From positions 3,100,001 to 3,164,000 of the forward strand of contig NZ_JHZX01000001.1 of the NCBI RefSeq assembly GCF_000688335.1: a stretch of 64,000 bases of DNA, written 5' to 3'. The notes beneath the pieces are model-generated. The model saw nothing but the letters and a program-made list of their open reading frames with translations, searched no databases and was not told the origin of the DNA. Source of the stretch: Sediminibacter sp. Hel_I_10 (GTDB lineage: Bacteria > Bacteroidota > Bacteroidia > Flavobacteriales > Flavobacteriaceae). Of this stretch, positions 3,209 to 22,991 are shown piece after piece; within the stretch, counting starts at the first letter, position 1; every line of letters begins with the position of its first letter. A program made the translations under genes and the position numbers.

Positions 3209-3301
3209 AAACAAAGCAGATTATATAGAACATTTTTAAAGTACCAATTCATTAGTTAACAAAGCCCATTGCTGATTAATGAATACCCAAATCGCAACAA
3301 C

Positions 3302-6300: not shown

Positions 6301-9300
6301 TCGAATTTTAGCTCCAGAATTTACGGTAAGCACATCAGATATTACGTGTGCAAACGCTGGCAATGGTGGTACAATTACTATTAATGTTACCAATGCCAAT
6401 GGCAGTAGCTTACAATATAGTGTAGACGGTGGCGCAACGTTCATCAACTCCCCAGTATTTACGGGTCTTGGTGAAGGTGATCATGACGTTGTAGTGCAAT
6501 ATAGCATAGGAGGTTCGGTATGTTTAACAGATGCCCAAACCGTTACAATTACGTCAACAACAGCTATTGGAGGGACTGCAGAATTAACTCAAGCCTTTAC
6601 CTGTGCCACAGAGGCTACCATCACGGTGAGCACAGTGACTGGGGGTGATGCACCTTATACGTATAGCATTGATGGTATTAACTTTCAGAATAGTCCAGAT
6701 TTTACTGGATTAACTTCAGGAACATACACCATCACTATAAAAGATGCTAATGACTGTACCTCGTTAAGCAATCAAGTGGTCATTGATCCTTTAAATCCAA
6801 TCACAGATATGGATTTTGATGCCACTGCTTTATCGTGTCCTGAGCTTACTTCAGATGTTTCAATCATTAATGTTGTTGGTGGATCAGGCACTTTTGACTA
6901 TCAAATTACTGCACCTGCGTCTGCTCAAACGGCTTATCAAAGCTCTAATGTGTTTGCAGGATTAGCTCCAAACACATACACGTTCAGAATTCAAGATGAA
7001 AACGGATGTACTTACAGTAAAACACTTACCATAGCACCTTTGCCAGTATTGACTGTGAGTACCGTATTGACTAAAGATTTAGACTGTACGTCATCTCCAG
7101 ATGCTACAATTAACGGAACCATTTCTGGTGGTACAGCACCATTTACCTATGCTGTGTCTGTAGATGGTGGAACATATACTTCTGTTGGATCAACAGGTAC
7201 AACATTTAGCTATTCTACGCCAAATGAAGGCACCTATCAATTTGAAATTACAGACAGTAATGGATGTACCGTGACTTCTGGAGTTCAAACAGTTCAAGAA
7301 ATATCATTACCAGACTTAAGTGTTGTAACACAAACACAACCGATCTTATGTAATGGAGATAGTAATGGGTCTATATCAGTGACTATTGATAACACAGTAG
7401 GAACTGCACCATTTACAATCAATGTTACCAATGATACTACAGGCGTAGATTATGGAACTCAGACTTCTGGTTTAGCTGCGGGTAATTATACGGTTACGGT
7501 TACCGATGCTAAATCATGTAGCGCAACGGAGAACATAATAATCGATCAGCCAGAGCCAATCATGGTCAACTATTCTACCGTGGATATTTCATGTGCTTCT
7601 GGAGGGATTTCTCAAGGCTCCATTATTATTGATGGGGTTACAGGGGGAACATCGCCTTATAACTATTTTGTGACAGGGACTAATGGATATGAAAATTCAG
7701 AACTTAATACCACGGGTTCAACATCTGTGAGTTTTGATGTTGTTGATTTCGGACTTTATCAAATAAATGTCGTAGATGCCAATGGTTGTTCTGTATTATT
7801 TCAGGATGTATTGGTGGCATCACCTCCAACAGATTTAGATATTAATATAGATACTACTGTAGACTGTCTTACTGGAGGGGAAGCAGTAGTTAGCGTAGGC
7901 TCATCTTTAGCGAGTGCTGGACCATTCTTTTTCAGTATCTATCAAGGACCAGTTTCTGTGTATCCAAATCCTGCAGGGTCATGGATTGCAGAAGATGCAC
8001 CAGGGAGTCAATCGGCTACCTTTACAGGTTTAACGCCTGGGGTTCAATATACCTTCATCGTTTATGATGCAGCTACAGATTGTAGTTATTATGAGCCTTC
8101 AACAGCACCAATACCAACCAATTCTACCTTAACGGCTACTGCTGTTAGCGCAAATAATATTACATGTAATGGTAGTGATGACGGTAATGTATCGTTCACG
8201 GTTAATAGTGTTTATGCTGCACCTGCTACGGTATCTTATGAGATATTTGAATCGCTTTCTTTAGAAACAACAGGAATTAGCGGTACAGGCGTGGTACCTT
8301 CAAACGGTGCTTTAAATGTTACCAATTTAGGAGCATTACCTTTTGGAAACTACTATGTACTCATCACTGAAACCGTAGGCCCAAATACGGGCTGTAGTGT
8401 GGTAAGTGTTCCTTTTAACATTACCGAATCTGCACTTCCTTTAGAGCTTACAGCTTCTGTGGATAACAATGCAAATTGTGTTGACAATTCAGGACTTATT
8501 AGTGCTGTTGCACAGTTTGGTACAGCCCCTTATCAATATCAAGTGACTACAAGTGCAACGGCGCCTTTGGCTTCAGATACGAACTGGGCCAACGCAAGTA
8601 CATTTAACTTAAACGCAGGTAATTATTACGTTCACGTGATCGATGCTTATGGTTGTATCGTAACGAGTCCTGTTCAAGTATTGCCTATGGATCCTGCACC
8701 TAGTATTTCCGCAGTTACTAATAACCAATGTACGGTAGAAGATGGTGCATATGCTATTGATGTTACTTTAGATGTTGCTGGGATTGCCCCATACAGTTAT
8801 AGTATAGACGGTGGTGCATTTCAAACGCAAACCGCGCCATTCACAATTTCAAATCTCGTTTCTGGTACGCATACGGTCGAAGTTCAAGATGCCAACGGTT
8901 GTGGTAATTTGGTTTCTATAGATGTTGTCGCACCATTAGATATGGTTCCTGCAGTAACTGCTTTTCCTTCATGTAACGATAATGATGGTGAAATCACACT
9001 AATAGGATCAGGCGGGTCAGGATCATATACGTATAGTATTAATCCTAGTGCCACATCAATTTCGTTTTCTGGAAGCTCATTTACAGGAGTTCCTTCTGGA
9101 GATTATGTGGTGACAATGACAGATGATCTTACGGCTTGTACTGAAGATGTGAGCATAACAATACCAAGTGCCAATCCATTAACATTTACGCTTACGCCGA
9201 CTACGGTGATTTGTTTTGGTGAAGATGCACCTTTTGAAATCAATGTTAGTGGGTATACAGGCGCTTATACTTATGAAGTATTCAATACTGCCGGTACATC

Positions 9301-11689
9301 TGTAACAGGAAGCGTTATTGCGAATACAACTACCAATCCGTTAACCGTTTCAGGAGTACCAGCAGGAACGTATACAGTAGAATTAACTGAGACCGATGCC
9401 CCATTTTGCTCGGCGACTGCAAGTTTGATCATCAATTCCCCTTCGGAAACATTAGCTCTAGACTTGACGGAGAGCTCCAATGTGACCTGTTCGGATGACC
9501 AGGGTACGATCACCGCGGTTGCCACAGGTGGCTGGGGTGATGTTGAGTACGAGCTTACCGGTGCAAGTACTGTCGGCTATTCTTCCAACGGGACCTTCAC
9601 GGGCCTTTCCGCGGGGACCTATACGGTCAACGCGATGGACTCGGGTGGCTGTATCGCCTCCGGGACGATCACCCTAGAGGTGCCGTTGCCCATTGACGCG
9701 ACCTTCACGGCGAGCACGGGTACGCTCCTTTGCTTTGGCGACCAGGATGCGAGCATCACGGTGAGCAACGTTAGTGGCGGACAGGGCAGCAACTACACCT
9801 ATACATTGAACACGGTGCTGCCAACGGCGAGCACCTCCGGTCCACAGACCCTTAATGTGTTCACGGACCTAGCTGCGGGGACCTATAGCGTTGTGATCAA
9901 CGATGGCTACGGCTGTAGCAGGACCTCTGCGGATATCGTCATCGGTGCGCCGACGCCGATCACCGCGAGCCTTGTTACGGCAACGGCCCAGACCTGTCTG
10001 ATCGATGCCGAGCTTACGCTTAGCGCTAGCGGGGGTACGGGTGCCTACCAATACAGCGATGACAGCGGTTTTGCCACGGTACTAGGGACCTTCACGGCCT
10101 CTGCGACGTTCGACGTTGCACCGGGGACCTATTCCTATTACGTAAGGGATGCCAACGGCTGTGTGGCCACGGTCTCCAATGAGATCACGATAGAGCAGAT
10201 CCCTGCACTGGAGCTCGAGCTTGAACTGGTCAACGCGACGATCAACTGCGCCGGCGACAATACCGGAGCGATCATCGCCACGGCCACTGGAGGACTTGGG
10301 GACTATGTCTACATCCTCCAGGACGGTTCCGGTGTTGAGATCACCGATGCAGTTCAAAATAGCCCAGGGGTGTTTACCGGGCTTGTTGCCGGTGACTACA
10401 TCGTATTGGTGGAGAGCGGTGACTGTAGCGATGGGTCCCTACCGGTGAGCATCACGGAGCCCGATGCGCCTCTGGAGGTGAGCTTCGAGGTGTCGAACAT
10501 CTCCTGTCCCGGTACCAACAACGGTGCTGTGGAGATCACGGCCACCGGTGGCACGGGCACGGTCCAATATGCGATCTCGCCCCAGCTCAACCAGTTCTTC
10601 TCGACCAACACGTTCGTGGACCTTTCACCGGGCACCTACGATGTGATCGTTCAGGACCAACTGGGCTGCTACGTGACCTTCGATTTCACGGTTACCGAGC
10701 CAGCACCGGTGATCCTTGGGATCGTTGCGGACTCTTTCTTCCCGGAGATCTGCTTCGGCGAGGCCAACGGGGAGTTCAGCGTGGAGATCTCGGGCGGTGT
10801 GAAGCCCTACAGCGTGAGCCTTGACGATTACAACGGTGTGTACACCCAGGGGAGTGCCACGCAGGCACAGTTTGACTTTACCGATCTGGTGGGCGGTGAC
10901 CATGTGGTCTTTGTACGTGACAGTAACGGCTGCGAGTCTGAGTGGAACATCAGCTTCCCCGGGTCGGTGCGCATCGAGGCGGAGGTAGAGGTGTCCTTCA
11001 GCTGCGACAACAACAATGCGGTCAACGCGGTGACGGTAATGGTGGACGGTACGCTCACCGATACGGCGGAGCTGGACTATTCATTGGACGGCGGTCCCTA
11101 CCAGATGAGCAACGTCTTCACGGACGTTCCAACGGGAGGGGACCACTATGTTGACGTAAGGCACACCAACGGATGTATCGTGACGACGAAGTTCTTCGAG
11201 ATCCCGGAGTTCGAGCCATTGGCGCTCGTGCTGGAGGAAGGGGAGCTCAACGAGATCGTTGCGGTTGCCACAGGCGGCACCGGCGATTACGAGTTCTGGC
11301 TCAACGGCGAGTCCCAGGGCGATAACAACGTGTTCACGATCTACGAGACGGGCACCTACAACATCACGGTTACCGATGGCTCGGGCTGTGATAGGAGCGA
11401 GTCGATGGAGTATGAGTTCGTTGACATCTGTATCCCGAACTATTTCACGCCCAACGGCGATGGTATCCAGGATGGCTGGGCACCGGGCTGCTCGAACGGC
11501 TACCCGAACCTTGAGTTCGACATCTTTGACAGGTACGGTCGCAAGGTGGCCTCGCTGAGACAGGGAGAGCTCTGGGACGGCAGGTACAACGGCAATGAAC
11601 TGCCCACGGGCGACTATTGGTACGTGGTGAGCCCCAACAGCACCACATCGGACAGGGAGTTCGTGGGGAACTTTACATTATACAGGTAA
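3302..11689 (+). CDS. Giant SprB-like surface protein A with T9SS type B sorting domain
   Basis: A 2795-aa secreted protein. The frame can be extended to a TTG at 3269, but ATG 3302 is preferred: it gives a basic N-terminus followed by a hydrophobic signal segment ending FAQ. Layout: a unique N-terminal domain (VPFTPRLDGG, GDVVFIGNNI, YAGLYWASV) to about residue 400; a DUF11-like domain (about 415-530, ELNYVIGFQNLGN); a Cys-rich segment; then some twenty SprB-type repeats with motifs such as GTYTVTVTDAxxC; and a final sorting domain from about residue 2709 (CIPNYFTPNGDGIQDGW to FTLYR). The likely role is an extended adhesin on the cell surface, possibly for gliding or attachment to particles. 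From base 9436 the composition switches abruptly to GC-rich and the sequence becomes nearly identical to the end of giant gene B. A PorP/SprF partner follows 24 bp later. Ligand unknown. Confidence 0.9.
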   Translation: MKTPTNPKSIGSIVSALTYYSENLVIGKGNTIKKLVVLFTIFLSTSAFAQLAVPFTPRLDGGSIKVKGDVVFIGNNIVTAAGLGLPYNGNQQNNSNEGIYVNVESGGDPDIFSSSSADLTIDTDCKKILYAGLYWASVYPVEVANNQSANFQGTPRFEDWNQIKFKLPTGDFIDLVADNDSDPIGEEDDIIFDGYEYYGAGVQNSFKDSPIICYKNVTNLVQNLTESDGKYTVANLRATRGRRNGGCSAGWTMVVIYESPILPSKYIAVFDGYAGVQGNTDLDIPVSGFQTLPAPYPVNANIGVGALEGDFGIYGDSFRFKASGSTNFTTLSDAINQPNNFFNSTITMNGVHNLNRNPASTNTLGLDINNLKIPNPSNLVIPNDETAGDLKLTTSGDGFGAFVTSFSVEIIEPDIVLTKIVEDEFGNNIGGQVVDLGDELNYVIGFQNLGNDDATDFIIRDILPINIVFDYPNDVISLPPGVSVESYDAATREIIFRIEDYVVEENDPVSEIRFKVTVVESCSLLVDVCSDLINNQAYATYRSVLNPDFLITDDPSYSANTGCLLSPQATNFLADLNDCIFTQNETLCGSTLDITAANGYDSYSWSTSPSGTPVIGTTQTITVNDPGVYYVRNTAVAPCQSIDQIFNVELFGGNIQNPVIPYADEVIICPNDGKPLPNIYLCGANDFRDIETNIASAASIIWDKLDESSCTSVSNPDCANENDSCVWNSVETGSDFTAEEAGQYRLTVNFEGGCFVQFYFNVYQNLLDPSVTTTDIVCDTPGSITVGGVPSGYEYSLDGTNFQSNSTFSITSAGIYTVYIRQVGIETNPCIFTVEDVQVRDRNFTGSTLVIQPFCNGDKGSIQIAANDAIPQYFFELYNGATLVNSVGPIVDNNYTFENLNPGTYTATLETEDGCTYSEEITIIEPPLLTVTAALTAPLACEDGEITIYPQGGTPPYFYFVNSTTDFQTDPIVIVTDPSTYEIMVVDANNCTASTTILVDRILAPEFTVSTSDITCANAGNGGTITINVTNANGSSLQYSVDGGATFINSPVFTGLGEGDHDVVVQYSIGGSVCLTDAQTVTITSTTAIGGTAELTQAFTCATEATITVSTVTGGDAPYTYSIDGINFQNSPDFTGLTSGTYTITIKDANDCTSLSNQVVIDPLNPITDMDFDATALSCPELTSDVSIINVVGGSGTFDYQITAPASAQTAYQSSNVFAGLAPNTYTFRIQDENGCTYSKTLTIAPLPVLTVSTVLTKDLDCTSSPDATINGTISGGTAPFTYAVSVDGGTYTSVGSTGTTFSYSTPNEGTYQFEITDSNGCTVTSGVQTVQEISLPDLSVVTQTQPILCNGDSNGSISVTIDNTVGTAPFTINVTNDTTGVDYGTQTSGLAAGNYTVTVTDAKSCSATENIIIDQPEPIMVNYSTVDISCASGGISQGSIIIDGVTGGTSPYNYFVTGTNGYENSELNTTGSTSVSFDVVDFGLYQINVVDANGCSVLFQDVLVASPPTDLDINIDTTVDCLTGGEAVVSVGSSLASAGPFFFSIYQGPVSVYPNPAGSWIAEDAPGSQSATFTGLTPGVQYTFIVYDAATDCSYYEPSTAPIPTNSTLTATAVSANNITCNGSDDGNVSFTVNSVYAAPATVSYEIFESLSLETTGISGTGVVPSNGALNVTNLGALPFGNYYVLITETVGPNTGCSVVSVPFNITESALPLELTASVDNNANCVDNSGLISAVAQFGTAPYQYQVTTSATAPLASDTNWANASTFNLNAGNYYVHVIDAYGCIVTSPVQVLPMDPAPSISAVTNNQCTVEDGAYAIDVTLDVAGIAPYSYSIDGGAFQTQTAPFTISNLVSGTHTVEVQDANGCGNLVSIDVVAPLDMVPAVTAFPSCNDNDGEITLIGSGGSGSYTYSINPSATSISFSGSSFTGVPSGDYVVTMTDDLTACTEDVSITIPSANPLTFTLTPTTVICFGEDAPFEINVSGYTGAYTYEVFNTAGTSVTGSVIANTTTNPLTVSGVPAGTYTVELTETDAPFCSATASLIINSPSETLALDLTESSNVTCSDDQGTITAVATGGWGDVEYELTGASTVGYSSNGTFTGLSAGTYTVNAMDSGGCIASGTITLEVPLPIDATFTASTGTLLCFGDQDASITVSNVSGGQGSNYTYTLNTVLPTASTSGPQTLNVFTDLAAGTYSVVINDGYGCSRTSADIVIGAPTPITASLVTATAQTCLIDAELTLSASGGTGAYQYSDDSGFATVLGTFTASATFDVAPGTYSYYVRDANGCVATVSNEITIEQIPALELELELVNATINCAGDNTGAIIATATGGLGDYVYILQDGSGVEITDAVQNSPGVFTGLVAGDYIVLVESGDCSDGSLPVSITEPDAPLEVSFEVSNISCPGTNNGAVEITATGGTGTVQYAISPQLNQFFSTNTFVDLSPGTYDVIVQDQLGCYVTFDFTVTEPAPVILGIVADSFFPEICFGEANGEFSVEISGGVKPYSVSLDDYNGVYTQGSATQAQFDFTDLVGGDHVVFVRDSNGCESEWNISFPGSVRIEAEVEVSFSCDNNNAVNAVTVMVDGTLTDTAELDYSLDGGPYQMSNVFTDVPTGGDHYVDVRHTNGCIVTTKFFEIPEFEPLALVLEEGELNEIVAVATGGTGDYEFWLNGESQGDNNVFTIYETGTYNITVTDGSGCDRSESMEYEFVDICIPNYFTPNGDGIQDGWAPGCSNGYPNLEFDIFDRYGRKVASLRQGELWDGRYNGNELPTGDYWYVVSPNSTTSDREFVGNFTLYR
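9436..11689 (+). repeat. GC-rich 3' cassette, copy 1 (end of giant gene A)
   Basis: This 2254-bp block matches 20235-22488 without a gap. It starts at ttccccttcgg inside a Ser-Pro-Ser-Glu-Thr-Leu stretch and ends at the stop codon. I counted 32 base differences by hand, about 98.6% identity: 8 in the first 106 bp, none over 9542-10650, and 24 in the remainder. Two 60-base lines inside the block have 63% and 67% GC, against 32% and 38% in two lines of the same gene upstream. It encodes about 750 residues of SprB-type repeats plus the sorting domain. Confidence 0.95.
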
Positions 11690-11713
11690 TTGACAAAAGT
11701 TGTTAAATAAAAA

Positions 11714-12694
11714 ATGAATCAAATGAAAAAATTAATAGTATATATCTGTTTTTTGCTTGTAGCAAGCGGGTACGGTCAAGAGTTGAATTTACCTGTATTT
11801 ACACAGTATTTAGCCGATAACGACTTTGTGGTTTCTCCAACTTATGCTGGTATTGGTGATAATTTCCGAATTAGAGCCAACGGTTTGACCCAATGGGTTG
11901 GAATTAAAAATGCTCCTGATAATCAATCGTTGTACGCAGATTTCAGAATATCAAACAGATCTGGAGTTGGGTTATCACTTTACAATGATAAAAATGGTAA
12001 CACACGTCAAAAGGGTATTAAATTTTCATTTGCACATCACTTGATTCTAGATTACAAGTCAAAACAATATTTGAGTTTTGGGGTGTCTTATAATATCAAC
12101 AACTTTAAAATAGATATCGAAAATTTTGATACCACTTTTGAAACTCCTGTTTTGGATCCTTCGGTGACTGATGATAGAGGTCGCTCTAATAATAACTTTG
12201 ATTTTGGTGTACTTTATAGAAATAAAGGCTACTTTTTAAGTTTGAATGCCAATAACCTCTTACCAAAGGATATTGATAATTTCACCGGAATAGAACCTAA
12301 CTTACTTTTAAATCTTCAGGCCTATACAGGTATTAGATTTAAAGCTAGAGAGAACAATAAAGTGGAATTTGAACCATCAATCTTCTATCAGTTATTTGCA
12401 AGTGATGGTCGATCTACAACAGATTTAAACTTTAAATTCCGTCAGTATAATAGAGATGGCGATTATTATTGGGCAGGTATTTCCTACCGTTTCTTAAATG
12501 ATCAATTGCTACAACCTTTAAACATTGGACCAATGGCAGGTTTTATGAAATCGAAATTTTATTTCGCCTATTCTTATCAACTTACTACTAATGATTTAAT
12601 GAGTTTTAACTCGGGAACGCACATGATCACTATTGGTCTTGATTTTCTGCAAGGTATTAGCGATTGTCCTTGCACAACCAGTCTAGGACATTAA
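11714..12694 (+). CDS. PorP/SprF-family type IX secretion membrane protein
   Basis: A 326-aa protein of normal family length with a signal peptide (KKLIVYICFLL to GYGQ). A second ATG at 11723 is also possible. Motifs fit PorP/SprF: QYLADNDFVVSPTYAGIGDN near the N-terminus, alternating beta-strand pattern throughout, and a last strand ending MITIGLDFL. Family members are outer membrane barrels that pair with type B T9SS substrates. The gene sits 24 bp after giant gene A and 125 bp before giant gene B, so it could serve one or both. It is AT-rich again, in sharp contrast with the GC-rich cassette that ends just before it. Unlike the PorP/SprF protein at 557-3208, it has no helical or SPOR-like extension. 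Confidence 0.9.
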   Translation: MNQMKKLIVYICFLLVASGYGQELNLPVFTQYLADNDFVVSPTYAGIGDNFRIRANGLTQWVGIKNAPDNQSLYADFRISNRSGVGLSLYNDKNGNTRQKGIKFSFAHHLILDYKSKQYLSFGVSYNINNFKIDIENFDTTFETPVLDPSVTDDRGRSNNNFDFGVLYRNKGYFLSLNANNLLPKDIDNFTGIEPNLLLNLQAYTGIRFKARENNKVEFEPSIFYQLFASDGRSTTDLNFKFRQYNRDGDYYWAGISYRFLNDQLLQPLNIGPMAGFMKSKFYFAYSYQLTTNDLMSFNSGTHMITIGLDFLQGISDCPCTTSLGH

Positions 12695-12819
12695 ATAAAT
12701 GAAGAAATAATGCCTTTATTAAAAGAGAATAGCTAAATTAGAACATTAAAACATCACATAATTCTTTTTTTCTGCCAGCCCCAATGTAGAAAAATTGAAA
12801 TGAGATTAAATAGATATTT

Positions 12820-15800
12820 ATGGAAAAACCTACTTTTTCTAGAATAGCCATCATTGGTTCATTTCTACTATTTGCACTACAATCAATCGCTCAAAATCAC
12901 GTCCCATTTACCCCCCGATTTAATCAAGACTTAAAAGGTGACATTGTATTGATTGGTAATAATATTTTAGGACCAAGCAACGACGCGTTTAATAACAATA
13001 CCTCTTATAACCATACGGTTGATATGAGGTATATTGATATTGACGGAGATGCCTCTACCTTTAGTTCATCAAGCGCCGATTTAAATATCCCAAATCCTAA
13101 TTGTTATCAGATCAAATATGCTGGTCTTTACTGGGGAGCTGTTACAAAAGGAGAGCAGCCCATTACAGATATTAAGTTCAAAGGCCCCACAGGGGGTTAC
13201 AATGACATCGTAGGAACTATTGTTTACAATGCTGATGGGACACCTACAGGAGACAGTTTTCCTTATTCTTGTTATGCTGATGTTACAGATATCGTCACAG
13301 GCCTCTCCAATGATTTGGGAACCTACACTGTAGGGAACATATCAAGTGCTGAGGGTGCAACAGCTTTTATGACTCCATATAACGGTACAGGTTATTCTGC
13401 GGGATGGTCTCTATTTGTTGTATACGAAGATCCTACATTACCAGGAAAATCAATTACGAGTTTTGATGGTTTTAGTGCTATAAGCAGCTCAGTAAATGTT
13501 GATGTTCCTATTTCAGGGTTTAGAACGGTGCCAGCTCCAGCTCCAGTAAGAGCTAATTTTGCATTTGCCGCTTTAGAGGGAGATAAGCCTATTGAAAATG
13601 ACCGCTTGGTTCTTAATGGTGTGCCTCTTTCTGCTGCAGATAGACCGGCAAATAACTTCTTTAATAGTTCTGTTACTCAGCTTAGTGCTCTGCCTGTAGA
13701 TAACCGTAATCCAAACAGTACAAATACTTTAGGATTTGATACTGGAGTTATGGTGGTTCCAAACCCTAGTAACAATGTTATTGCGAATGATGCTACCTCG
13801 GCTACCGTAAGGTTAGAAAGTAATCAAGACGTCTATTTTCAATATTTCTTCGCTTTTGCTGTAGAAATTATAGAACCCAATATTGTACTTACAAAGATTG
13901 TAGAAGATGATCTAGGAAACAATATTGGTGGTCAGACCATCGGTCTAGCGCAATCACTAAATTATGTCATTGGTTTTCAAAATACGGGTAATGATAATGC
14001 CACAAATTTTCAGATAAGGGATATACTTCCAATTAACATTGTGTTTGATTATCCCAGCGATTTGATACTGCCGGCTGGTGTTACTGTTTCTAGTTATAAT
14101 CCTGCTACACGAGAACTTATTTTTGATATTGAGGATTATTTAGTTGAAGAAAATGATCCTGCCTATGAAATTCGTATTGAGGTCATGACCGTAGAAACCT
14201 GTAGCCAGTTGGCAGATGCCTGTTCCAATATTATAAATAATCAGGCCTATGCGAGATACAATGGGTCATTAAATCCAAATTTTGAAATTACTGATGACCC
14301 TAGTTTTAGTAGCAATACAGGGTGTTTGATTTCGCCTCAAGCAACAAATTTTTTGGCTGATTTAGATGACTGTACATTTGAAGAAACCATAACCTTATGT
14401 GGAGATACTGTTGAACTTACAGCTGCCAATGGTTACGATTCTTATTCTTGGTCTACGAGTATTACTGGAACTCCTGTTATAGGCACTGGCCAATCTATAA
14501 CAGTAACCGAAACAGGTAATTATTACGTTTATAATACCGCTATTGCACCCTGTCAATCTATAGTACAAAGTTACGATGTAACCTTGTTTGGCTCAAATAC
14601 ATCAAATCCTGTAATTCCTTATGCTGATGAAGTTGTGATTTGTCCCAATGACGGTAAGGAGCTACCTCTATTGTTTTTGTGTGGTGCAAATGATTCAGTC
14701 AATATTGAAACAAATATTTCAAGTGCTTCTTCAATTATATGGGAAGTTCTTGATGAGTCAAGCTGTTCTGCGGTCCCAAATCAAGATTGTGCAAATGAAG
14801 ATACTGGATGTACATGGAATGAGGTTGGCACAGGACCAAATTATCTGGCTAATACTGCTGGTCAATATCGACTTACAATAAATTATTCAGGAGGTTGTTT
14901 CTTACAATTTTATTTTAATGTGTATCAAAATCTGTTAAGTCCTACAGTGTCTGCATCAGATATTATATGTACAACACCAGGAAACATTACCGTTGGTGGC
15001 GTACCATCAGGTTATCAATATAGTATAGATGGCGTAAATTATCAATCAAGCAATTCATTCACAGTTGATACTCCAGGAAACTATACGGTTTATATACAAC
15101 AGGAAGGTGTTGAGACGAATCCATGTGTTTTTACTGTTCCTGATGTACAAGTTCGTTCAAGGGATTTTACAGTATCTGCAATTATCAATCAGCCACTTTG
15201 CCATGGAGATAAAGGAAGTGTTCATTTGGCTGCAAATGATGCAGATCCCCAATATTTCTTTGAGCTTTATAATGGCGGCACTTTAGTAAATAGTGTTGGT
15301 CCAAACACTCAAAATAGTTATACATTTGAAAACTTAAACCCTGGCACTTATACCGCCACGGTGGAAACAGAAGATGGGTGTACACATACTGAAGACTTTA
15401 CGATTGTTGATCCCCCGCTGCTACTGGCAACAGCAGCTTTAACAGTTCCTTTGAGCTGTAATGATGGTGAAATTACAGTGTATCCAACAGGAGGGACGCC
15501 ACCTTACTTTTATTTTGTAAACAGTGGGACTGATTTTCAAACGGTTCCGGAAATTGTGATTACAGAGTCTGGAGTTTATAACATCACGGTTGTTGATTCT
15601 AATAACTGTACGGCTACAGCTGCGGTAACTGTAATTGATGTTCCTGCACCTAACTATAATATCATTTCAACAAATATAGAATGTAATGGAAATCTTAATT
15701 CTGGAGCTATCATAGTCGATATTCCCGATGCCAGTGGAACAACGTTACTTTATAGTATAGATGGTGGTGTCACATTTACTAATTCACCAGTATTCACAGG

Positions 15801-18800
15801 GCTCTCTGCCGGAGACTACTCTATCGTAGTTCAATATTCAGTTGGAGGTGTGGTATGTTTAACTGAACCCCAAACAGTGACCATTTCTGCGGCTGTCGCT
15901 ATTGAAGGCACGGTATCACTTACGGCACCATATACTTGTAGTGCTAATGGTGAAATAACCGTTACAGATGTTTCTGGAGGAACTGAACCTTATACTTATA
16001 GTATTGATGGTACTACCTTTCAGTCAGGTAACAATTTTACCGACTTAACAAATGGAACCTATTCTGTAATAGTACAGGACTCTAATGGATGTACTTCGAT
16101 GGTAGATGAAATTACCATACTACCATTAGATCCCCCAACCGACTTAACATTTAGTAGCTCTGCGCTAACATGTCCAACTAATGTATCAACAATTACAATT
16201 ACTGGGACTATTGGGGGTACTGATCCATTAGAATATCAAATCATAGCACCTAGTTCAGTATCTACTGGCTACCAAGCTTCACCTGAGTTTTCAGGATTGG
16301 AATCAGGAACCTATACGTTTCAGGTAAAAGATGCTAACAATTGTACATATAGTGAATCTTATACAATTTCACCTTTAGCACCAATAACGGTAGTGGGTCA
16401 AAATATCAATGATGTCACCTGTTTTGGAGCTGGAGATGGATCGGTCCAATTTACGGTTTCTGGTACTACTGATTTTAATTATACAATCAATGGTGGGGCT
16501 TCAACTTCAGGATCATCTCCAATAGTGTTGACAGGATTATCTGAAGTAACTTACACCATCACCGTTACAGATGCGAATACCAACTGTGAAGCTACGGCAT
16601 CATTAACGGTTAATGGACCAGCATCGGTATTGGCTATGACTGTTGATGTCACTCAAATTACCTGTGAGCAAAACGGAAGTGTTATTGTCAATGCCACTGG
16701 GGGTTGGGGAGGAAATACATATAGCTTGACTTTACCTGATGGATCTGTACTCCCTGCTCAATCTTCAAATACTTTTGTGAATTTGACTCAGGAAGGAACA
16801 TATACGGTAACGGCTGTTGATGCCAATAACTGTACGGTAACAGAGACATTTATATTAAACACATCAGATTTACCAGTTGCTGTAGTTGATACTACCTCAG
16901 ATTTATGTTATGATGGGATAAATGGCGCAACAATTGAGGTTACGGTTACTTCTGGTCAAGCCCCATTTGAATATAGTGTTAATGGTGGCGCATATCAGTC
17001 TAATAGTACTTTTTCAAATTTAGTACCGGCAACTTACACGGTTACGGTTAGAGATGCCAATGGATGTACCGTTACCTTATCTGCACAGACTATCTCTGAA
17101 CAAATAACACTAAACACCGTATTGACCAAAGATTTAGACTGTTCTGTTGCTCCAGATGCCATCATCACAGGAACCGTAACAGGAGGAACTGCTCCTTTTA
17201 CATATGAAGTTTCTATTAATGGAGGCGCTTATTCGGCTTTAGGAGCAACGGGTTCTCCGTTTACTTATACCACAGCAACTCCAGGAACCTACCAGTTACA
17301 GATCTCTGGAGCGCAAGGTTGTACTGCGGAATCAGGAATTATCACCATCAACCCAATTTCGCCGCCAGCATTAAGTTTGGTCGCTCAAACACAGCCCATC
17401 TTATGTAATGGGGATACTAATGGTGCTATTGAGATCACTATTGATAATACAGTTGGTACAGCGCCATTTGTGATCAATGTGAATAACGATACAACGGGTA
17501 CAGATTTTGGAACGCAAACCTCAGGACTACCAGCGGGAACGTACACGGTAACTTTAACAGACGCCAACCTTTGTACAGCAACTGATACGGTAACAATAGA
17601 TCAGCCAGATCCCATAATTGTGGATTTTCACACTGTTGATATTAGTTGTACCAGCAGCGGTATTTCACAGGGCTCTATCATTATTGATGGTGTTACTGGC
17701 GGAACGGCTCCCTATAATTATTTTGTAACAGGAACTAACGGCTATTCTAATTCTGAATTGAACTCTTCAGGTTCAACATCTGTAACTTTTGATGTTGTTG
17801 ATTTTGGACTCTATCAAATTAACGTGGTAGATGCCAGCGGCTGCTCGGTATTATTTCAGGATGTATTGGTGGCATCACCTCCAACAGATTTAGATATTAA
17901 TATAGCAACAACGGTAGACTGTCTTTCAGGAGGGGAAGCTGTGGTGAGCATTGGATCTACACTAACGAGTGCTGGACCATTCTTTTTCAGTATTTATCAA
18001 GGACCAATCTCTGTGTATCCAAATCCAGCCGGATCTTGGATTCCAGAAGACGCAGCGGGAAGTCAATCGGCTACATTTACAGGTTTAACACCTGGTGTAC
18101 TTTATACCTTTATTGTTTATGATGCCTCAACTAATTGTAGTTATTATGAGCCTGCAACGGCTCCAGTTCCAACAAATTCATCATTGACGGCAACTGCAGT
18201 TTCTGCAAATAATATTACTTGTACAGGAAATGCAGATGGTACGGTATCTTTTACTGTAAACAGTGTTTACGGGACAGCGACGACGATTAGTTATGAAGTT
18301 TTTGATTCGTTATCAATGATGAGTTCAGGAGTGAGTGGTACGGGAGTTGTGCCCGCTAATGGATCATTAACCGTTAGTGATTTAGGAGCGTTACCATATG
18401 GTAATTATTATGTGCTTATAAGCGAGACCTCTGGATCTAATTCGGGCTGTAGTGTGGTAACAGTACCGTTCAATATTACAGAATCTGCTATTCCATTAAG
18501 CTTAACGGTTTCAGTTGATCAAAATGCCAACTGTAATTCTAATTCAGGCGTTATTAGTGCAATTGGTCATGATGGCACATCGCCATATCAATATCAAATA
18601 ACAACCACTGCAACAGCACCTTCTGCAAACGATGCGCAATGGGCTTCTGCTAGTACATTTAATTTGGATGCAGGGAATTATTATGTGCATGTTGTAGATG
18701 CTTACGGCTGTGTTGTCTCATCTCCAGTAGTACTATTGCCAATGGATGCGATTCCAGTAGTAGCTGCAGATGTAGATAATCAATGTGATACTGTTGAAGG

Positions 18801-21800
18801 TAATTTTGAAATCTACGTCACGTTAACCACAACGGGAATCTCACCTCATAGTTATAGTATCGACGGTGGGGCATTTCAAATGCAAACAGCGCCATTTACA
18901 ATATCAAATGTATCGTCAGGAAGTCATACAGTTGAAGTACAAGATGCCAATGGTTGCGGTAATTTAGTGACTGTTATTATTGAGACACCAATAGGATTAA
19001 CTCCGTCAATAACGGCCTTGCCATCGTGCTCTGATGACGATGGTACTATTACGGTAACTGGTGTAGGTGGTTCTGGCACGTATGCCTATAGCATAAGTCC
19101 AAATCCAGCTTCAGTATCAGTTTCTGGCAATGTGTTTTCTGGGGTACCTTCGGGAGTTTATACCGTGACAATGACAGATACCGTGACCTCATGTGCCGAA
19201 ACAGTTTCAGTAACATTAGATGCTGCAACTCCAGTAGATTTTACAGCTGCAAGCACTGACGTTACATGTAATGGTGGAAATAACGGTACAATCACAGTAG
19301 ATTTACCTTCAAGCAATGATAATCCGGTGTATACTTATGAGATTATTGCTCCAATAGTTTTACCTGCTCAAAATTCTAATGTATTTACAGGCTTGTCTGC
19401 AGAAACATATACGGTTCGGGTAACTTCAGGAAGAGGATGTGTCGCTACGGAAGCTGTTGTTATTGGAGAGCCACAAGTATTGGAAGTATCGGGAACAGCA
19501 ACAGATTTTGCATGTGCTTTAGATAATTCAGTAAATACTTCAACAATTACAATTACAGAAATAGGAGGTATTGCACCATATACTTATAGTATTGACGGAA
19601 CCAATTATTTTACTACAAATACGTTTGATGTCATTGATGATGGATCCATTCAGAGTATCACGATTTATGTTAAGGATGCCAACGGATGTCTAGATTCAGA
19701 TACCCTTATAATTAATCCATTGCCATCTTTATCATTAGCGACTGCAACTATTGCGACTCCTATTGACTGTAATGATACTGGTTCAGTATCTATATCTGTA
19801 ACGGGTGGATCGGGTAATTTTACCTATCAGATGCTGCCAAGTGGAGCACCTCAGTCTTCTAATGTATTTAATATTACAGGCCCAGGAGATTATTATTTCC
19901 AAGTTAATGATACAGATACGGGTTGTAACATTTCAACAGCTGCTATTACAATCGCTCCATATAATACCATTGAGGCTGTTTTGATTGCCACAGCATCAGT
20001 CACCTGTTTTGGTGAAAGTAATGGAGAATTAGAATGGACTGTGAGTGAATTTACAGGAAATTATAACTATGAAGTATTCAATACTGCCGGTACGTCTGTA
20101 ACAGGAAGTGTTGCAGCTAATACAGCTACTAATCCACAGATTATTGCAGGGTTGTCTGCCGGTAATTATACAATTGTACTTACCGAGACGGATACACCAT
20201 TTTGTTCCACGACCACTAATGTGGTTACAGTGGGTTCCCCTTCGGAAACCTTAGCTCTAGACTTGACGGAGAGTTCAAACGTGACCTGTTCGGATGACCA
20301 GGGCACGATCACCGCGGTTGCCACAGGTGGCTGGGGGGGCGTTGAGTACGAGCTTACCGGTGCAAGTACTGTCGGCTATTCTTCCAACGGGACCTTCACG
20401 GGCCTTTCCGCGGGGACCTATACGGTCAACGCGATGGACTCGGGTGGCTGTATCGCCTCCGGGACGATCACCCTAGAGGTGCCGTTGCCCATTGACGCGA
20501 CCTTCACGGCGAGCACGGGTACGCTCCTTTGCTTTGGCGACCAGGATGCGAGCATCACGGTGAGCAACGTTAGTGGCGGACAGGGCAGCAACTACACCTA
20601 TACATTGAACACGGTGCTGCCAACGGCGAGCACCTCCGGTCCACAGACCCTTAATGTGTTCACGGACCTAGCTGCGGGGACCTATAGCGTTGTGATCAAC
20701 GATGGCTACGGCTGTAGCAGGACCTCTGCGGATATCGTCATCGGTGCGCCGACGCCGATCACCGCGAGCCTTGTTACGGCAACGGCCCAGACCTGTCTGA
20801 TCGATGCCGAGCTTACGCTTAGCGCTAGCGGGGGTACGGGTGCCTACCAATACAGCGATGACAGCGGTTTTGCCACGGTACTAGGGACCTTCACGGCCTC
20901 TGCGACGTTCGACGTTGCACCGGGGACCTATTCCTATTACGTAAGGGATGCCAACGGCTGTGTGGCCACGGTCTCCAATGAGATCACGATAGAGCAGATC
21001 CCTGCACTGGAGCTCGAGCTTGAACTGGTCAACGCGACGATCAACTGCGCCGGCGACAATACCGGAGCGATCATCGCCACGGCCACTGGAGGACTTGGGG
21101 ACTATGTCTACATCCTCCAGGACGGTTCCGGTGTTGAGATCACCGATGCAGTTCAAAATAGCCCAGGGGTGTTTACCGGGCTTGTTGCCGGTGACTACAT
21201 CGTATTGGTGGAGAGCGGTGACTGTAGCGATGGGTCCCTACCGGTGAGCATCACGGAGCCCGATGCGCCTCTGGAGGTGAGCTTCGAGGTGTCGAACATC
21301 TCCTGTCCCGGTACCAACAACGGTGCTGTGGAGATCACGGCCACCGGTGGCACGGGCACGGTCCAATATGCGATCTCGCCCCAGCTCAACCAGTTCTTCT
21401 CGACCAACACGTTCGTGGACCTTTCACCGGGCACCTACGATGTGATCGTGCAGGACCAACTGGGCTGCTATGTGACCTTCGATTTCACGGTTACCGAGCC
21501 GGCACCGGTGATCCTTGGGATCGTTGCGGACTCTTTCTTCCCAGAGGTCTGCTTCGGCGAGGCCAACGGGGAGTTCAGCGTGGAGATCTCGGGCGGTGTG
21601 AAGCCCTACAGCGTGAGCCTTGACGATTACAACGGTGTGTACACCCAGGGGAGTGCCACACAGGCACAGTTTGACTTTACCGATCTGGTGGGCGGTGACC
21701 ATGTGGTCTTTGTACGTGACAGTAACGGCTGCGAGTCTGAGTGGAACATCAGCTTCCCCGAGTCGGTACGCATCGAGGCGGAGGTAGAGGTGTCCTTCAG

Positions 21801-22488
21801 CTGCGACAACAACAATGCGGTCAACGCGGTGACGGTAATGGTGGACGGTACGCTCACCGATACGGCGGAGCTGGACTATTCATTGGACGGCGGTCCCTAC
21901 CAGATGAGCAACGTCTTCACGGACGTTCCAACGGGAACGGACCACTATGTTGACGTAAGGCACACCAACGGATGTATCGTGACGACGAAGTTCTTCGAGA
22001 TCCCGGAGTTCGAGCCATTGGCGCTCGTGCTAGAGGAAGGGGAGCTCAACGAGATCGTGGCGGTTGCCACAGGTGGCACCGGCGATTATGAGTTCTGGCT
22101 CAACGGCGAGTCCCAGGGCGATAACAACGTGTTCACGATCTACGAGACGGGCACCTATAACATCACGGTTACCGATGGCTCGAGCTGTGAGCGTAGCGCT
22201 GCGATGGAGTATGAGTTCGTTGACATCTGTATCCCGAACTATTTCACGCCCAACGGCGACGGTATCCAGGATGGCTGGGCACCGGGCTGCTCGAACGGTT
22301 ACCCGAACCTTGAGTTCGACATCTTTGACAGGTACGGTCGCAAGGTGGCCTCGCTGAGACAGGGAGAGCTCTGGGACGGCAGGTACAACGGCAATGAACT
22401 GCCCACGGGCGACTATTGGTACGTGGTGAGCCCCAACAGCACCACATCGGACAGGGAGTTCGTGGGGAACTTTACATTATACAGGTAA
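12820..22488 (+). CDS. Giant SprB-like surface protein B with T9SS type B sorting domain
   Basis: A 3222-aa paralogue of the protein at 3302-11689. ATG 12820 gives a signal peptide ending SIAQ, and the mature part starts NHVPFTPRF. The order of parts is the same: N-terminal domain (GDIVLIGNNI, YAGLYWGAV), DUF11-like domain (LNYVIGFQNTGN), Cys-rich segment, a long series of SprB-type repeats, and the type B sorting domain (CIPNYFTPNGDGIQDGW). It is about 430 residues longer because it carries extra repeats in the middle. Repeats keep the spacing YxYSIDGxxF ... GTYTVTVxDxxxC. From base 20235 it carries the second copy of the GC-rich cassette. It has no PorP/SprF gene after it; the nearest is the one upstream. 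The likely role is a long cell-surface adhesin delivered by T9SS. Ligand unknown. Confidence 0.9.
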   Translation: MEKPTFSRIAIIGSFLLFALQSIAQNHVPFTPRFNQDLKGDIVLIGNNILGPSNDAFNNNTSYNHTVDMRYIDIDGDASTFSSSSADLNIPNPNCYQIKYAGLYWGAVTKGEQPITDIKFKGPTGGYNDIVGTIVYNADGTPTGDSFPYSCYADVTDIVTGLSNDLGTYTVGNISSAEGATAFMTPYNGTGYSAGWSLFVVYEDPTLPGKSITSFDGFSAISSSVNVDVPISGFRTVPAPAPVRANFAFAALEGDKPIENDRLVLNGVPLSAADRPANNFFNSSVTQLSALPVDNRNPNSTNTLGFDTGVMVVPNPSNNVIANDATSATVRLESNQDVYFQYFFAFAVEIIEPNIVLTKIVEDDLGNNIGGQTIGLAQSLNYVIGFQNTGNDNATNFQIRDILPINIVFDYPSDLILPAGVTVSSYNPATRELIFDIEDYLVEENDPAYEIRIEVMTVETCSQLADACSNIINNQAYARYNGSLNPNFEITDDPSFSSNTGCLISPQATNFLADLDDCTFEETITLCGDTVELTAANGYDSYSWSTSITGTPVIGTGQSITVTETGNYYVYNTAIAPCQSIVQSYDVTLFGSNTSNPVIPYADEVVICPNDGKELPLLFLCGANDSVNIETNISSASSIIWEVLDESSCSAVPNQDCANEDTGCTWNEVGTGPNYLANTAGQYRLTINYSGGCFLQFYFNVYQNLLSPTVSASDIICTTPGNITVGGVPSGYQYSIDGVNYQSSNSFTVDTPGNYTVYIQQEGVETNPCVFTVPDVQVRSRDFTVSAIINQPLCHGDKGSVHLAANDADPQYFFELYNGGTLVNSVGPNTQNSYTFENLNPGTYTATVETEDGCTHTEDFTIVDPPLLLATAALTVPLSCNDGEITVYPTGGTPPYFYFVNSGTDFQTVPEIVITESGVYNITVVDSNNCTATAAVTVIDVPAPNYNIISTNIECNGNLNSGAIIVDIPDASGTTLLYSIDGGVTFTNSPVFTGLSAGDYSIVVQYSVGGVVCLTEPQTVTISAAVAIEGTVSLTAPYTCSANGEITVTDVSGGTEPYTYSIDGTTFQSGNNFTDLTNGTYSVIVQDSNGCTSMVDEITILPLDPPTDLTFSSSALTCPTNVSTITITGTIGGTDPLEYQIIAPSSVSTGYQASPEFSGLESGTYTFQVKDANNCTYSESYTISPLAPITVVGQNINDVTCFGAGDGSVQFTVSGTTDFNYTINGGASTSGSSPIVLTGLSEVTYTITVTDANTNCEATASLTVNGPASVLAMTVDVTQITCEQNGSVIVNATGGWGGNTYSLTLPDGSVLPAQSSNTFVNLTQEGTYTVTAVDANNCTVTETFILNTSDLPVAVVDTTSDLCYDGINGATIEVTVTSGQAPFEYSVNGGAYQSNSTFSNLVPATYTVTVRDANGCTVTLSAQTISEQITLNTVLTKDLDCSVAPDAIITGTVTGGTAPFTYEVSINGGAYSALGATGSPFTYTTATPGTYQLQISGAQGCTAESGIITINPISPPALSLVAQTQPILCNGDTNGAIEITIDNTVGTAPFVINVNNDTTGTDFGTQTSGLPAGTYTVTLTDANLCTATDTVTIDQPDPIIVDFHTVDISCTSSGISQGSIIIDGVTGGTAPYNYFVTGTNGYSNSELNSSGSTSVTFDVVDFGLYQINVVDASGCSVLFQDVLVASPPTDLDINIATTVDCLSGGEAVVSIGSTLTSAGPFFFSIYQGPISVYPNPAGSWIPEDAAGSQSATFTGLTPGVLYTFIVYDASTNCSYYEPATAPVPTNSSLTATAVSANNITCTGNADGTVSFTVNSVYGTATTISYEVFDSLSMMSSGVSGTGVVPANGSLTVSDLGALPYGNYYVLISETSGSNSGCSVVTVPFNITESAIPLSLTVSVDQNANCNSNSGVISAIGHDGTSPYQYQITTTATAPSANDAQWASASTFNLDAGNYYVHVVDAYGCVVSSPVVLLPMDAIPVVAADVDNQCDTVEGNFEIYVTLTTTGISPHSYSIDGGAFQMQTAPFTISNVSSGSHTVEVQDANGCGNLVTVIIETPIGLTPSITALPSCSDDDGTITVTGVGGSGTYAYSISPNPASVSVSGNVFSGVPSGVYTVTMTDTVTSCAETVSVTLDAATPVDFTAASTDVTCNGGNNGTITVDLPSSNDNPVYTYEIIAPIVLPAQNSNVFTGLSAETYTVRVTSGRGCVATEAVVIGEPQVLEVSGTATDFACALDNSVNTSTITITEIGGIAPYTYSIDGTNYFTTNTFDVIDDGSIQSITIYVKDANGCLDSDTLIINPLPSLSLATATIATPIDCNDTGSVSISVTGGSGNFTYQMLPSGAPQSSNVFNITGPGDYYFQVNDTDTGCNISTAAITIAPYNTIEAVLIATASVTCFGESNGELEWTVSEFTGNYNYEVFNTAGTSVTGSVAANTATNPQIIAGLSAGNYTIVLTETDTPFCSTTTNVVTVGSPSETLALDLTESSNVTCSDDQGTITAVATGGWGGVEYELTGASTVGYSSNGTFTGLSAGTYTVNAMDSGGCIASGTITLEVPLPIDATFTASTGTLLCFGDQDASITVSNVSGGQGSNYTYTLNTVLPTASTSGPQTLNVFTDLAAGTYSVVINDGYGCSRTSADIVIGAPTPITASLVTATAQTCLIDAELTLSASGGTGAYQYSDDSGFATVLGTFTASATFDVAPGTYSYYVRDANGCVATVSNEITIEQIPALELELELVNATINCAGDNTGAIIATATGGLGDYVYILQDGSGVEITDAVQNSPGVFTGLVAGDYIVLVESGDCSDGSLPVSITEPDAPLEVSFEVSNISCPGTNNGAVEITATGGTGTVQYAISPQLNQFFSTNTFVDLSPGTYDVIVQDQLGCYVTFDFTVTEPAPVILGIVADSFFPEVCFGEANGEFSVEISGGVKPYSVSLDDYNGVYTQGSATQAQFDFTDLVGGDHVVFVRDSNGCESEWNISFPESVRIEAEVEVSFSCDNNNAVNAVTVMVDGTLTDTAELDYSLDGGPYQMSNVFTDVPTGTDHYVDVRHTNGCIVTTKFFEIPEFEPLALVLEEGELNEIVAVATGGTGDYEFWLNGESQGDNNVFTIYETGTYNITVTDGSSCERSAAMEYEFVDICIPNYFTPNGDGIQDGWAPGCSNGYPNLEFDIFDRYGRKVASLRQGELWDGRYNGNELPTGDYWYVVSPNSTTSDREFVGNFTLYR
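20235..22488 (+). repeat. GC-rich 3' cassette, copy 2 (end of giant gene B)
   Basis: Direct copy of 9436-11689 at an offset of 10799 bp with no indels. Differences include WGD/WGG at the start and a cluster near 22186-22201 that changes GCDRSES to SCERSAA. The stop codon is the last shared codon, after which the two flanks are unrelated. Just upstream, AT-rich DNA of the two genes is clearly homologous but far less similar, so the identity jump is sharp. Confidence 0.95.
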
Positions 22489-22944: not shown

Positions 22945-22991
22945 CTATTTTATCATTGTGTTAAGATTATGTTATAGTTTTGAAACATAAT

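Follow-up and report, generated by a model that had tools for sequence, protein, structure and literature searches.

Near-identical, GC-rich tails in paired type IX secretion adhesin genes of Sediminibacter sp. Hel_I_10: probable GC-biased gene conversion between paralogues

The A/B adhesin locus

The stretch of DNA considered here, hereafter the window, comprises 64,000 nucleotides of Sediminibacter sp. Hel_I_10 (contig NZ_JHZX01000001.1, positions 3,100,001 to 3,164,000) and contains two giant adhesin genes of the type IX secretion system (T9SS), A and B, with strongly diverged heads and nearly identical, GC-rich tails. We refer to this genome as G000; the other G numbers designate comparison genomes, of which the 22 in the same genus grouping are called congeners. 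Family 1 is the adhesin family of genes A and B, and family 2 that of the CUB-PKD-T9SS type B adhesins. The features, with their positions in the window, are the following (ORF, open reading frame; aa, amino acids; GC3, G+C fraction at third codon positions).

3269..11689, + strand: gene A, giant SprB-repeat T9SS type B adhesin (ORF, translation, Pfam SprB and CHU_C, TIGR04131)
3302..4720 (limits approximate), + strand: head of gene A, "A-type" (72-79% identity to G022, G166 copy 1 and G028a)
9436..11689, + strand: homogenised, GC-rich tail of gene A, ~750 codons (98.6% identity to the B tail, GC3 0.67-0.83)
11432..11686, + strand: type B sorting domain (TIGR04131/CHU_C) of A, residues 2722-2806
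11714..12694, + strand: PorP/SprF-family shuttle gene, 326 aa, directly 3' of tail A (PF11751 and TIGR03519)
12820..22488, + strand: gene B, giant SprB-repeat T9SS type B adhesin, 3222 aa (ORF, Pfam SprB and CHU_C, TIGR04131)
12820..14170, + strand: head of gene B, "B-type" (76-79% identity to G007, G016 and G021; 79% to G062 copy 2)
20235..22488, + strand: homogenised, GC-rich tail of gene B (same comparison and GC3)
22231..22485, + strand: type B sorting domain (TIGR04131/CHU_C) of B, residues 3138-3222

Gene A (2806 aa) is called from a TTG, and its true start is likely to be a later ATG near 3302. The hallmarks of a T9SS type B adhesin, namely a TIGR04131/CHU_C domain, SprB repeats and an adjoining PorP/SprF gene, are all found at this locus. 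The SprB-type repeats and sorting domain that the first-pass annotation had read from the sequence alone are thus confirmed by Pfam SprB/CHU_C and by TIGR04131 (type B), and so is its picture of different outer parts joined to a common secretion and anchor part. The two heads are only 43% identical in protein sequence over ~450 aa. The B head is of the type carried by the single-copy gene of the congeners (three were tested), and the A head is of another type, which also occurs in G022.

Nearly identical tails of unusual base composition

As the first-pass annotation had counted by hand, the two tails are equal in length and ungapped, with 32 mismatches in 2254 bases (98.58% identity), and both end exactly at the stop codon; 23 of the 32 mismatches are at third codon positions. 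Outside the tails the ungapped identity is chance-like (0.20-0.42 in 50-base steps), and a gapped alignment extends a further ~190 bp upstream with decaying identity (2449 bp, 96.3%). There are exactly two copies of this cassette in the 4.1-Mb genome.

The tails are indeed GC-rich relative to the sequence upstream, but the earlier figure of 63-67% was too high: the cassette has 58.3% GC and the preceding parts ~35-43%. In 150-codon steps GC3 is 0.67-0.83 within the tails and 0.18-0.36 in steps that lie wholly upstream, whereas GC at positions 1 and 2 shifts little (0.46-0.54 within, 0.41-0.51 before). The jump at the tail edge is mainly synonymous, GC3 going from ~0.26 to 0.75. Since 1470 windows of 100 codons, taken from 29 systematically spaced 20-kb stretches of G000, average 0.333 (sd 0.063, maximum 0.64), such a GC3 is far outside chance.

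Single-copy relatives and the search for a source

In every one of the 22 congeners there is a single full-length homologue, 61-69% identical over 750 residues and flanked, where the contig extends, by adjoining ORFs of matching size. In 21 of them this single-copy gene has a GC3 of 0.13-0.26 in its last 750 codons, the same as in its remainder, and the genes of the congeners are not GC-rich over their whole length; it was GC-richness throughout that the first-pass annotation had named as speaking against its view. The twenty-second, G022 (Subsaximicrobium wynnwilliamsii G#7(T)), has a copy (G022:C60; L033 5617-16545) whose head is A-type and which contains B-like insertions and two GC3-rich blocks; its PorP gene has a GC3 of 0.64. 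This copy is possibly an A/B fusion, the survivor of a lost partner or a collapsed assembly.

No source of the tail closer than 69% was found among the 22 congeners, two overlapping draws of 299 and 397 family genomes and a named genome collection, the best identity outside G000 in the family draws being 68%. At 25 loci of other genomes (27 minus G062 and G283; G028 and G146, among the 25, belong to diverged pairs) tail GC3 is 0.12-0.36, only 0.01-0.09 above the preceding 500 codons. A recently imported GC-rich island has its nearest relatives on the side of the donor and is absent or unlike in close relatives, and neither pattern was observed.

Paralogue identity and GC3 in other genomes

We have compared GC3 between 60-codon windows in which the paralogues are at least 0.9 identical and those in which identity is below 0.85 (number of windows in brackets).

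G000 A/B: 0.749 (12) at >=0.9, 0.262 (33) at <0.85
G000 family 2: 0.756 (21) at >=0.9, 0.254 (18) at <0.85
G008 family 2: 0.674 (19) at >=0.9, 0.198 (20) at <0.85
G062: 0.614 (29) at >=0.9, 0.300 (17) at <0.85
G016 family 2 (weaker): 0.293 (21) at >=0.9, 0.207 (17) at <0.85
G007 family 2 (weaker): 0.252 (24) at >=0.9, 0.136 (14) at <0.85

G062, a complete genome of another genus, has two tandem copies with C-type and B-type heads and, because the head types differ, this is not the same pair as A/B. Up to codon 1020 its copies are 47-75% identical with a GC3 of 0.21-0.48, and from there to the stop codon 98-100% identical with a GC3 of 0.42-0.75, the step in composition falling at the identity boundary. 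Its congeners G283 and G319 carry the pair too, at contig ends; the G283 copies are 95% identical over 4.1 kb, with a GC3 of 0.62-0.63. For G406, which has two equal-scoring copies, an expectation for GC3 ("well above") was recorded before the DNA was read. Its last 1820 codons are 100% identical and have a GC3 of 0.352; the heads are at 0.21-0.24 and the tail of its congener G251 (one match) is at 0.195. The direction is as predicted and the size modest. Most of this rise falls in the terminal parts of the tract, codons 900-1260 and from codon 2640 to the stop.

Seven diverged pairs, 70-80% identical in their matched parts (six on one contig, that of G028 on two; in G070, where the first copy is broken into two ORFs, the comparison used only the second), have no window at or above 0.9 and a mean GC3 of 0.12-0.23. 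Their last 750 codons are at most 0.065 above the rest, and they remain at background level throughout. GC is raised in the recombining tract relative to its flanks strongly in G000, G062/G283 and G008, moderately in G406 and weakly in G007 and G016. The latter two had been candidates for counter-examples and were dropped as such once a small rise in GC3 was found, but they are still the weakest cases. The effect tracks recombination over gene function: 21 of the 22 single-copy congeners and all seven diverged pairs are low, and a different repeat, described below, is high.

Family 2 and other homogenised repeats of G000

Two further sets of near-identical sequences are dispersed in G000.

G000:C1:2284693-2288448 and 3378597-3382352 (L069, L068): family-2 pair (CUB-PKD-T9SS type B), 1.1 Mb apart
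G000:C1:2909650-2910745 and 1782707-1783802 (L215 7651-8746, L216 7708-8803): 96% identical dispersed repeat, in uncharacterised proteins

The family-2 genes (at 2.28 and 3.38 Mb) have 3760 bp in common at 99.2% identity, ending at the stop codon; GC3 is 0.76 over the tail as against 0.26 over the heads. Such a pair, 98.5-99.8% identical over 3.7-4.4 kb, is present in all four single-contig genomes (G000, G007, G008 and G016); in the genus as a whole 17 of 23 genomes have a match at E<=1e-100, several of the 17 being no more than weaker matches to other proteins. In the four complete genomes the two tails of one genome agree at 99-100%, and tails from different genomes at 63-81%. The heads align over most of their length by locus, with the single exception of the G007 gene that lacks a PorP neighbour. 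These comparisons argue firmly for concerted evolution of the tails. The head of the exceptional gene (L137, 650 kb) is partly like that of its own paralogue (69% over 395 aa), and not that of the orthologous locus in other species, from which it appears that head exchange may occur as well.

Family-2 tail GC3 is raised in all 13 species measured, strongly in G000, G008 (0.66) and G015 (0.63), and to 0.25-0.35 in G001, G003, G005, G006, G007, G016, G017, G018, G019 and G020, the family-1 genes of the same ten species having a GC3 of 0.14-0.21. Most of these ten are drafts represented by the tail only; the short G010 fragment was excluded and the values are uncorrected for amino-acid content. 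G015, once considered a single-copy exception, was dropped as such when its second gene was found to run off a contig (G015:C15, 1063 codons at the edge), and it probably has a pair of which one tail is missing from the assembly. In some drafts the family-2 tail is a small contig of its own (G020:C11, 3705 bp; G005:C3, 3384 bp), and since the tail assembles separately in this way, such pairs are easily missed in draft genomes.

We have also searched in the reverse direction, scanning the 1470 windows of G000 blindly for a GC3 above 0.5, with the known tracts outside the sample. Only eight windows qualified: two at an rRNA operon (itself present twice), five in one repeat cluster near 2.905-2.910 Mb and one (0.51) unassigned. 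Within the cluster, two windows fall in a 1096-bp copy of the dispersed repeat and three in adjoining local repeats (83-92%). GC3 is 0.50-0.77 within the dispersed repeat and drops to 0.25-0.38 past its end in the 1.78-Mb gene; next to the other copy lies sequence that is repeated in its own right (0.33-0.63). A Pfam scan of four ORFs gave one DUF6705, in the array beside the repeat, and three without a match, and recognised no T9SS features. Elsewhere in G000 (G000:C1:3664000-3680000, L067) a 1399-aa ORF and its neighbours contain internal repeats that are 84-91% identical with a GC of 0.42-0.51, possibly a fourth case involving local repeats.

Phylogeny and direction of substitution

The trees place GC-rich tails beside AT-rich ones (GC3 in brackets). 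In the family-2 tail tree G008 (0.66) groups with G017, G003 and G018 (0.26-0.31), as in the tree of family-1 gene bodies, and G015 (0.63) with G006 and G007 (0.25-0.31), although other trees place G015 differently or without resolution. In the cassette tree G062/G283 join G051 (0.16), and G000 joins G022 (0.54). The view of the first-pass annotation that recombination keeps the tails uniform is supported by the copy comparisons and these trees, and exchange between the copies, the lack of which it had said would count against it, was found.

Changes were polarised at fourfold degenerate sites by taking the state on which the relatives agree as ancestral, the outgroups of G000 being distant and parsimony rough. 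The ratio of A/T-to-G/C (W>S) to G/C-to-A/T (S>W) changes is 43:4 in G008, 79:6 in G015, 39:0 in G000 and 13:1 in G020/G005, as compared with 28:14 in G017, 13:8 in G007 and 20:13 in G019. For G283 we have separated differences between its copies (W>S:S>W 6:17) from changes fixed in both (11:11; Fisher p 0.13), with G062 as sister and G319 as outgroup; in a flanking gene the third-position identity of G062 and G283 is 0.81, against 0.60-0.62 to G319.

The third-base make-up of the G000 tails is nearly the same in the two adhesin families (A.07, C.43, G.32, T.18; and A.07, C.41, G.34, T.17), which are alike only near the sorting domain, and GC-ending codons are up in 16 of 16 and 15 of 15 amino acids tested. 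The matching make-up together with the rise across all amino acids is what an equilibrium at the level of bases would give. GC at positions 1 and 2 is 0.504, as against a mean of 0.458 and a maximum of 0.471 in 21 relatives. Under a two-copy model, GC* = eq × p/(eq × p + (1 − eq)(1 − p)), applied to the windowed GC3 values, p is ~0.9 for G000 and G008, 0.8 for G062, 0.7 for G007 and 0.6 for G016. In a toy simulation unbiased conversion keeps GC3 at background, and a GC-rich import would decay.

The common tail and the PorP/SprF shuttle

In Flavobacterium johnsoniae type B substrates are reported to depend on their cognate PorP/SprF shuttle, whose gene usually lies directly downstream, and one shuttle can serve type B domains that resemble each other; shuttle-dependent secretion has been demonstrated there for SprB and Fjoh_3952 (PMC12618676). 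Both G000 and G062 have one PorP gene between the homogenised genes and none after the second copy, which is followed by a TonB-receptor-like gene in G000 and by a trehalase gene in G062. In G283 there is a PorP gene after one copy, and after the other an ORF like the G062 trehalase gene, while G406 has a PorP gene after both copies, the two being 99.5% identical with a GC3 of 0.48. Each of the four single-contig genomes has, in family 2, a PorP gene after one member of the pair; after the other comes an ORF of 508-510 aa on the opposite strand, and the one that was scanned is OMPP1-like. Diverged pairs have two PorP genes in the four scanned (G070, G228, G166 and G028) and, judged by ORF size, also in G039 and G267, with only one in G146.

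A common tail therefore tends to be accompanied by a single, or a single duplicated, PorP/SprF shuttle for two adhesins whose heads differ. The tail, which carries the SprB repeats, would also bear the type B signal read by the shuttle, and two adhesins with different heads could then use a single shuttle. The sharing of a shuttle may be the reason that the tails stay alike, the alternative being conversion alone. Our genes resemble the SprB/SprF-type T9SS substrates described in PMC12618676 in their SprB repeats, type B domain and PorP/SprF gene directly downstream. They differ in the DNA-identical tail of ~750-1800 codons on two different-headed adhesins and, in most of the homogenised pairs, in having a single shuttle gene between them.

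Interpretation and alternatives

The explanation that we favour, with a probability of about 0.75, is that ectopic gene conversion makes the tails evolve in concert and that its repair is GC-biased, to a degree that depends on the lineage. By the comparisons above, A and B are old paralogues whose tails evolve together through ectopic conversion. The conversion, or the repair accompanying it, may prefer G/C over A/T at mismatches; the GC of long-identical tracts would then climb, chiefly through synonymous sites, and unconverted heads and single-copy orthologues would remain AT-rich. The same process would act on the other long homogenised coding repeats of G000. The several repeats, the controls and the blind reverse scan lend good support to the GC rise being part of the conversion process, and a mismatch repair favouring G/C appears, from these sequences, its likeliest cause. 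With less assurance, we lean towards the view that a strong G/C preference of recombination repair (up to ~9:1 at a mismatch on the two-copy estimate) in such Flavobacteriaceae turns ectopically converted coding repeats into GC islands.

The first-pass annotation had suggested instead that the cassette came from a GC-rich Bacteroidetes or evolved separately; in the first case unbiased recombination would have spread it to both genes. Such an import would explain the sharp edge and a GC3 near 0.75 in an AT-rich genome, and the length of the G000 branches (0.47 in family 2, 0.31 for the A/B stem) makes the G000 trees by themselves compatible with it. Nevertheless, the same 750-codon tail is AT-rich in 21 of 22 congeners, the genomes searched gave no source closer than 69%, the GC-rich tails do not form one clade and the W>S changes in G008 and G015 took place in situ. 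Moreover, one would have to postulate separate imports, differing in length, for the three G000 repeats, G008, G015 and G062/G283. On these grounds we have rejected a foreign origin, the least probable of the explanations considered.

Slightly less improbable, but still unlikely, is that conversion only homogenises and that selection (on GC-ending codons, mRNA structure or the recombination proficiency of the repeats) raises GC with no repair bias. It is true that the tails are long repetitive coding regions and that some lineages gain little GC despite their identity. On the other hand, single-copy orthologues of the tail escape the enrichment in 21 of 22 congeners, positions 1 and 2 shift as well, beyond the maximum of the relatives, and the repeat that lacks recognised T9SS features behaves alike. 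The rise in GC-ending codons in every amino acid tested, with C and G both up, together with the single-copy controls, has led us to disfavour codon selection in particular. Between these two in probability, and also improbable, is the idea that recombination carries its own GC-leaning mutation spectrum, through error-prone repair synthesis, with no biased choice at mismatches. It draws on the polarised family-2 differences between copies, which lean W>S (13:5 in G008, 8:4 in G000), but most such differences are unpolarisable (77 of 97 in G008, 17 of 30 in G000), and the G008 count of 97, from a protein-guided alignment, exceeds what the BLASTN identity of 98.5% implies and may include alignment noise. 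In G283, furthermore, the between-copy differences lean S>W and the fixed changes are balanced, though not significantly so.

A number of observations nevertheless sit uneasily with biased conversion. The same W>S lean between family-2 copies, seen also in G016 (4:3) and G007 (3:1), misfits the AT-leaning input expected of new mutations. The contrast in G283 points towards biased fixation but is not significant, and the fixed count for G319 would be 10 W>S to 55 S>W if it was G319 that changed, although as the outgroup it is unpolarisable. Because the G000 tails stand on such long stems, in-place change for G000 itself rests on distant outgroups. In the two-copy model a GC3 of 0.75 needs G/C to win ~9 of 10 mismatches, a strong bias, and simulations that start from 0.28 reach only 0.53-0.61 at 0.9, short of equilibrium. 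Since enrichment is weak in G007 and G016, with copies 99.7-99.8% identical, and only moderate in G406, identity alone does not set GC. The family-2 copy of G000 at 3.38 Mb is GC-rich for ~200 codons upstream of the present identity boundary. The exceptional G022 has one assembled copy and yet a tail GC3 of ~0.55, versus 0.36 elsewhere in the gene (20 genes give a background of 0.41, with a maximum of 0.57); we assume that its partner was lost or is unassembled. In G319, copy 2 has a diverged, AT-rich block (GC3 0.23-0.42) opposite a GC-rich one (0.55-0.65), as if it had been replaced from an unconverted allele. Mycobacterium tuberculosis has a GC-rich genome. A preprint on that species (PMC13061034), finally, which like the present work concerns ectopic conversion between bacterial paralogues, reports that GC content is not associated with the frequency of paralogue conversion.

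The G319 block itself (L135, G319:C53) occupies codons 60-480 of a 1289-codon end ORF and is 66-82% identical to its partner.

Relation to known systems

Whether gene conversion in bacteria is GC-biased is a matter of dispute: Lassalle et al. 2015 argue that it is (PMC4450053), and Bobay and Ochman 2017 are cited in PMC8223754 as reporting the opposite. With the former our data have in common a higher GC3 where recombination is stronger, at synonymous sites and independently of optimal codons. Whereas their contrast is between core genes that show evidence of intragenic recombination and core genes that do not, here the conversion is between paralogues within single genes, the step in GC3 is up to 0.5 and the control is internal to the same gene; a term search of their main text found none of paralog, duplicat, multigene or multi-copy (PMC4450053). 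Palindromes of primate X chromosomes, as described in PMC8981503, likewise have near-identical paired copies that are GC-richer than their single-copy flanks, with replacements leaning GC, but they are eukaryotic palindrome arms and not gene tails. In tuf and other bacterial multigene families, as cited in PMC8223754, paralogues within a genome are more alike than orthologues, as here; in our case only the tail is homogenised, the heads are free and base composition moves along. A literature search limited to titles and the beginnings of abstracts, with subscription papers mostly outside it, found no report of GC enrichment confined to homogenised bacterial paralogue tracts. Older work by Morris and Drouin reportedly deals with ectopic conversion in bacterial genomes and could bear on novelty.

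The G000 genes make this disputed idea directly testable, each holding its own control in the form of a converted tail and an unconverted head, to which the single-copy orthologues in related species may be added. They also caution against reading every GC island within a bacterial gene as a horizontal transfer. The arrangement further suggests how pairs of T9SS adhesins could diverge in their heads and yet keep the tail in common for a single shuttle. If our explanation is correct, biased gene conversion can move GC3 by half within one bacterial gene, and GC-rich tracts would record where, for how long and in which lineages bacteria convert.

Neighbouring features

Upstream of the A/B locus lies one further feature.

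557..3208, + strand: PorP/SprF-domain protein, 883 aa (domain matches)

Most congeners have a similar-sized ORF at this position, as judged by size only. The gene that follows B (window 22980-26045) encodes a TonB-dependent receptor-like protein with CarbopepD_reg_2, Plug and beta-barrel domains.

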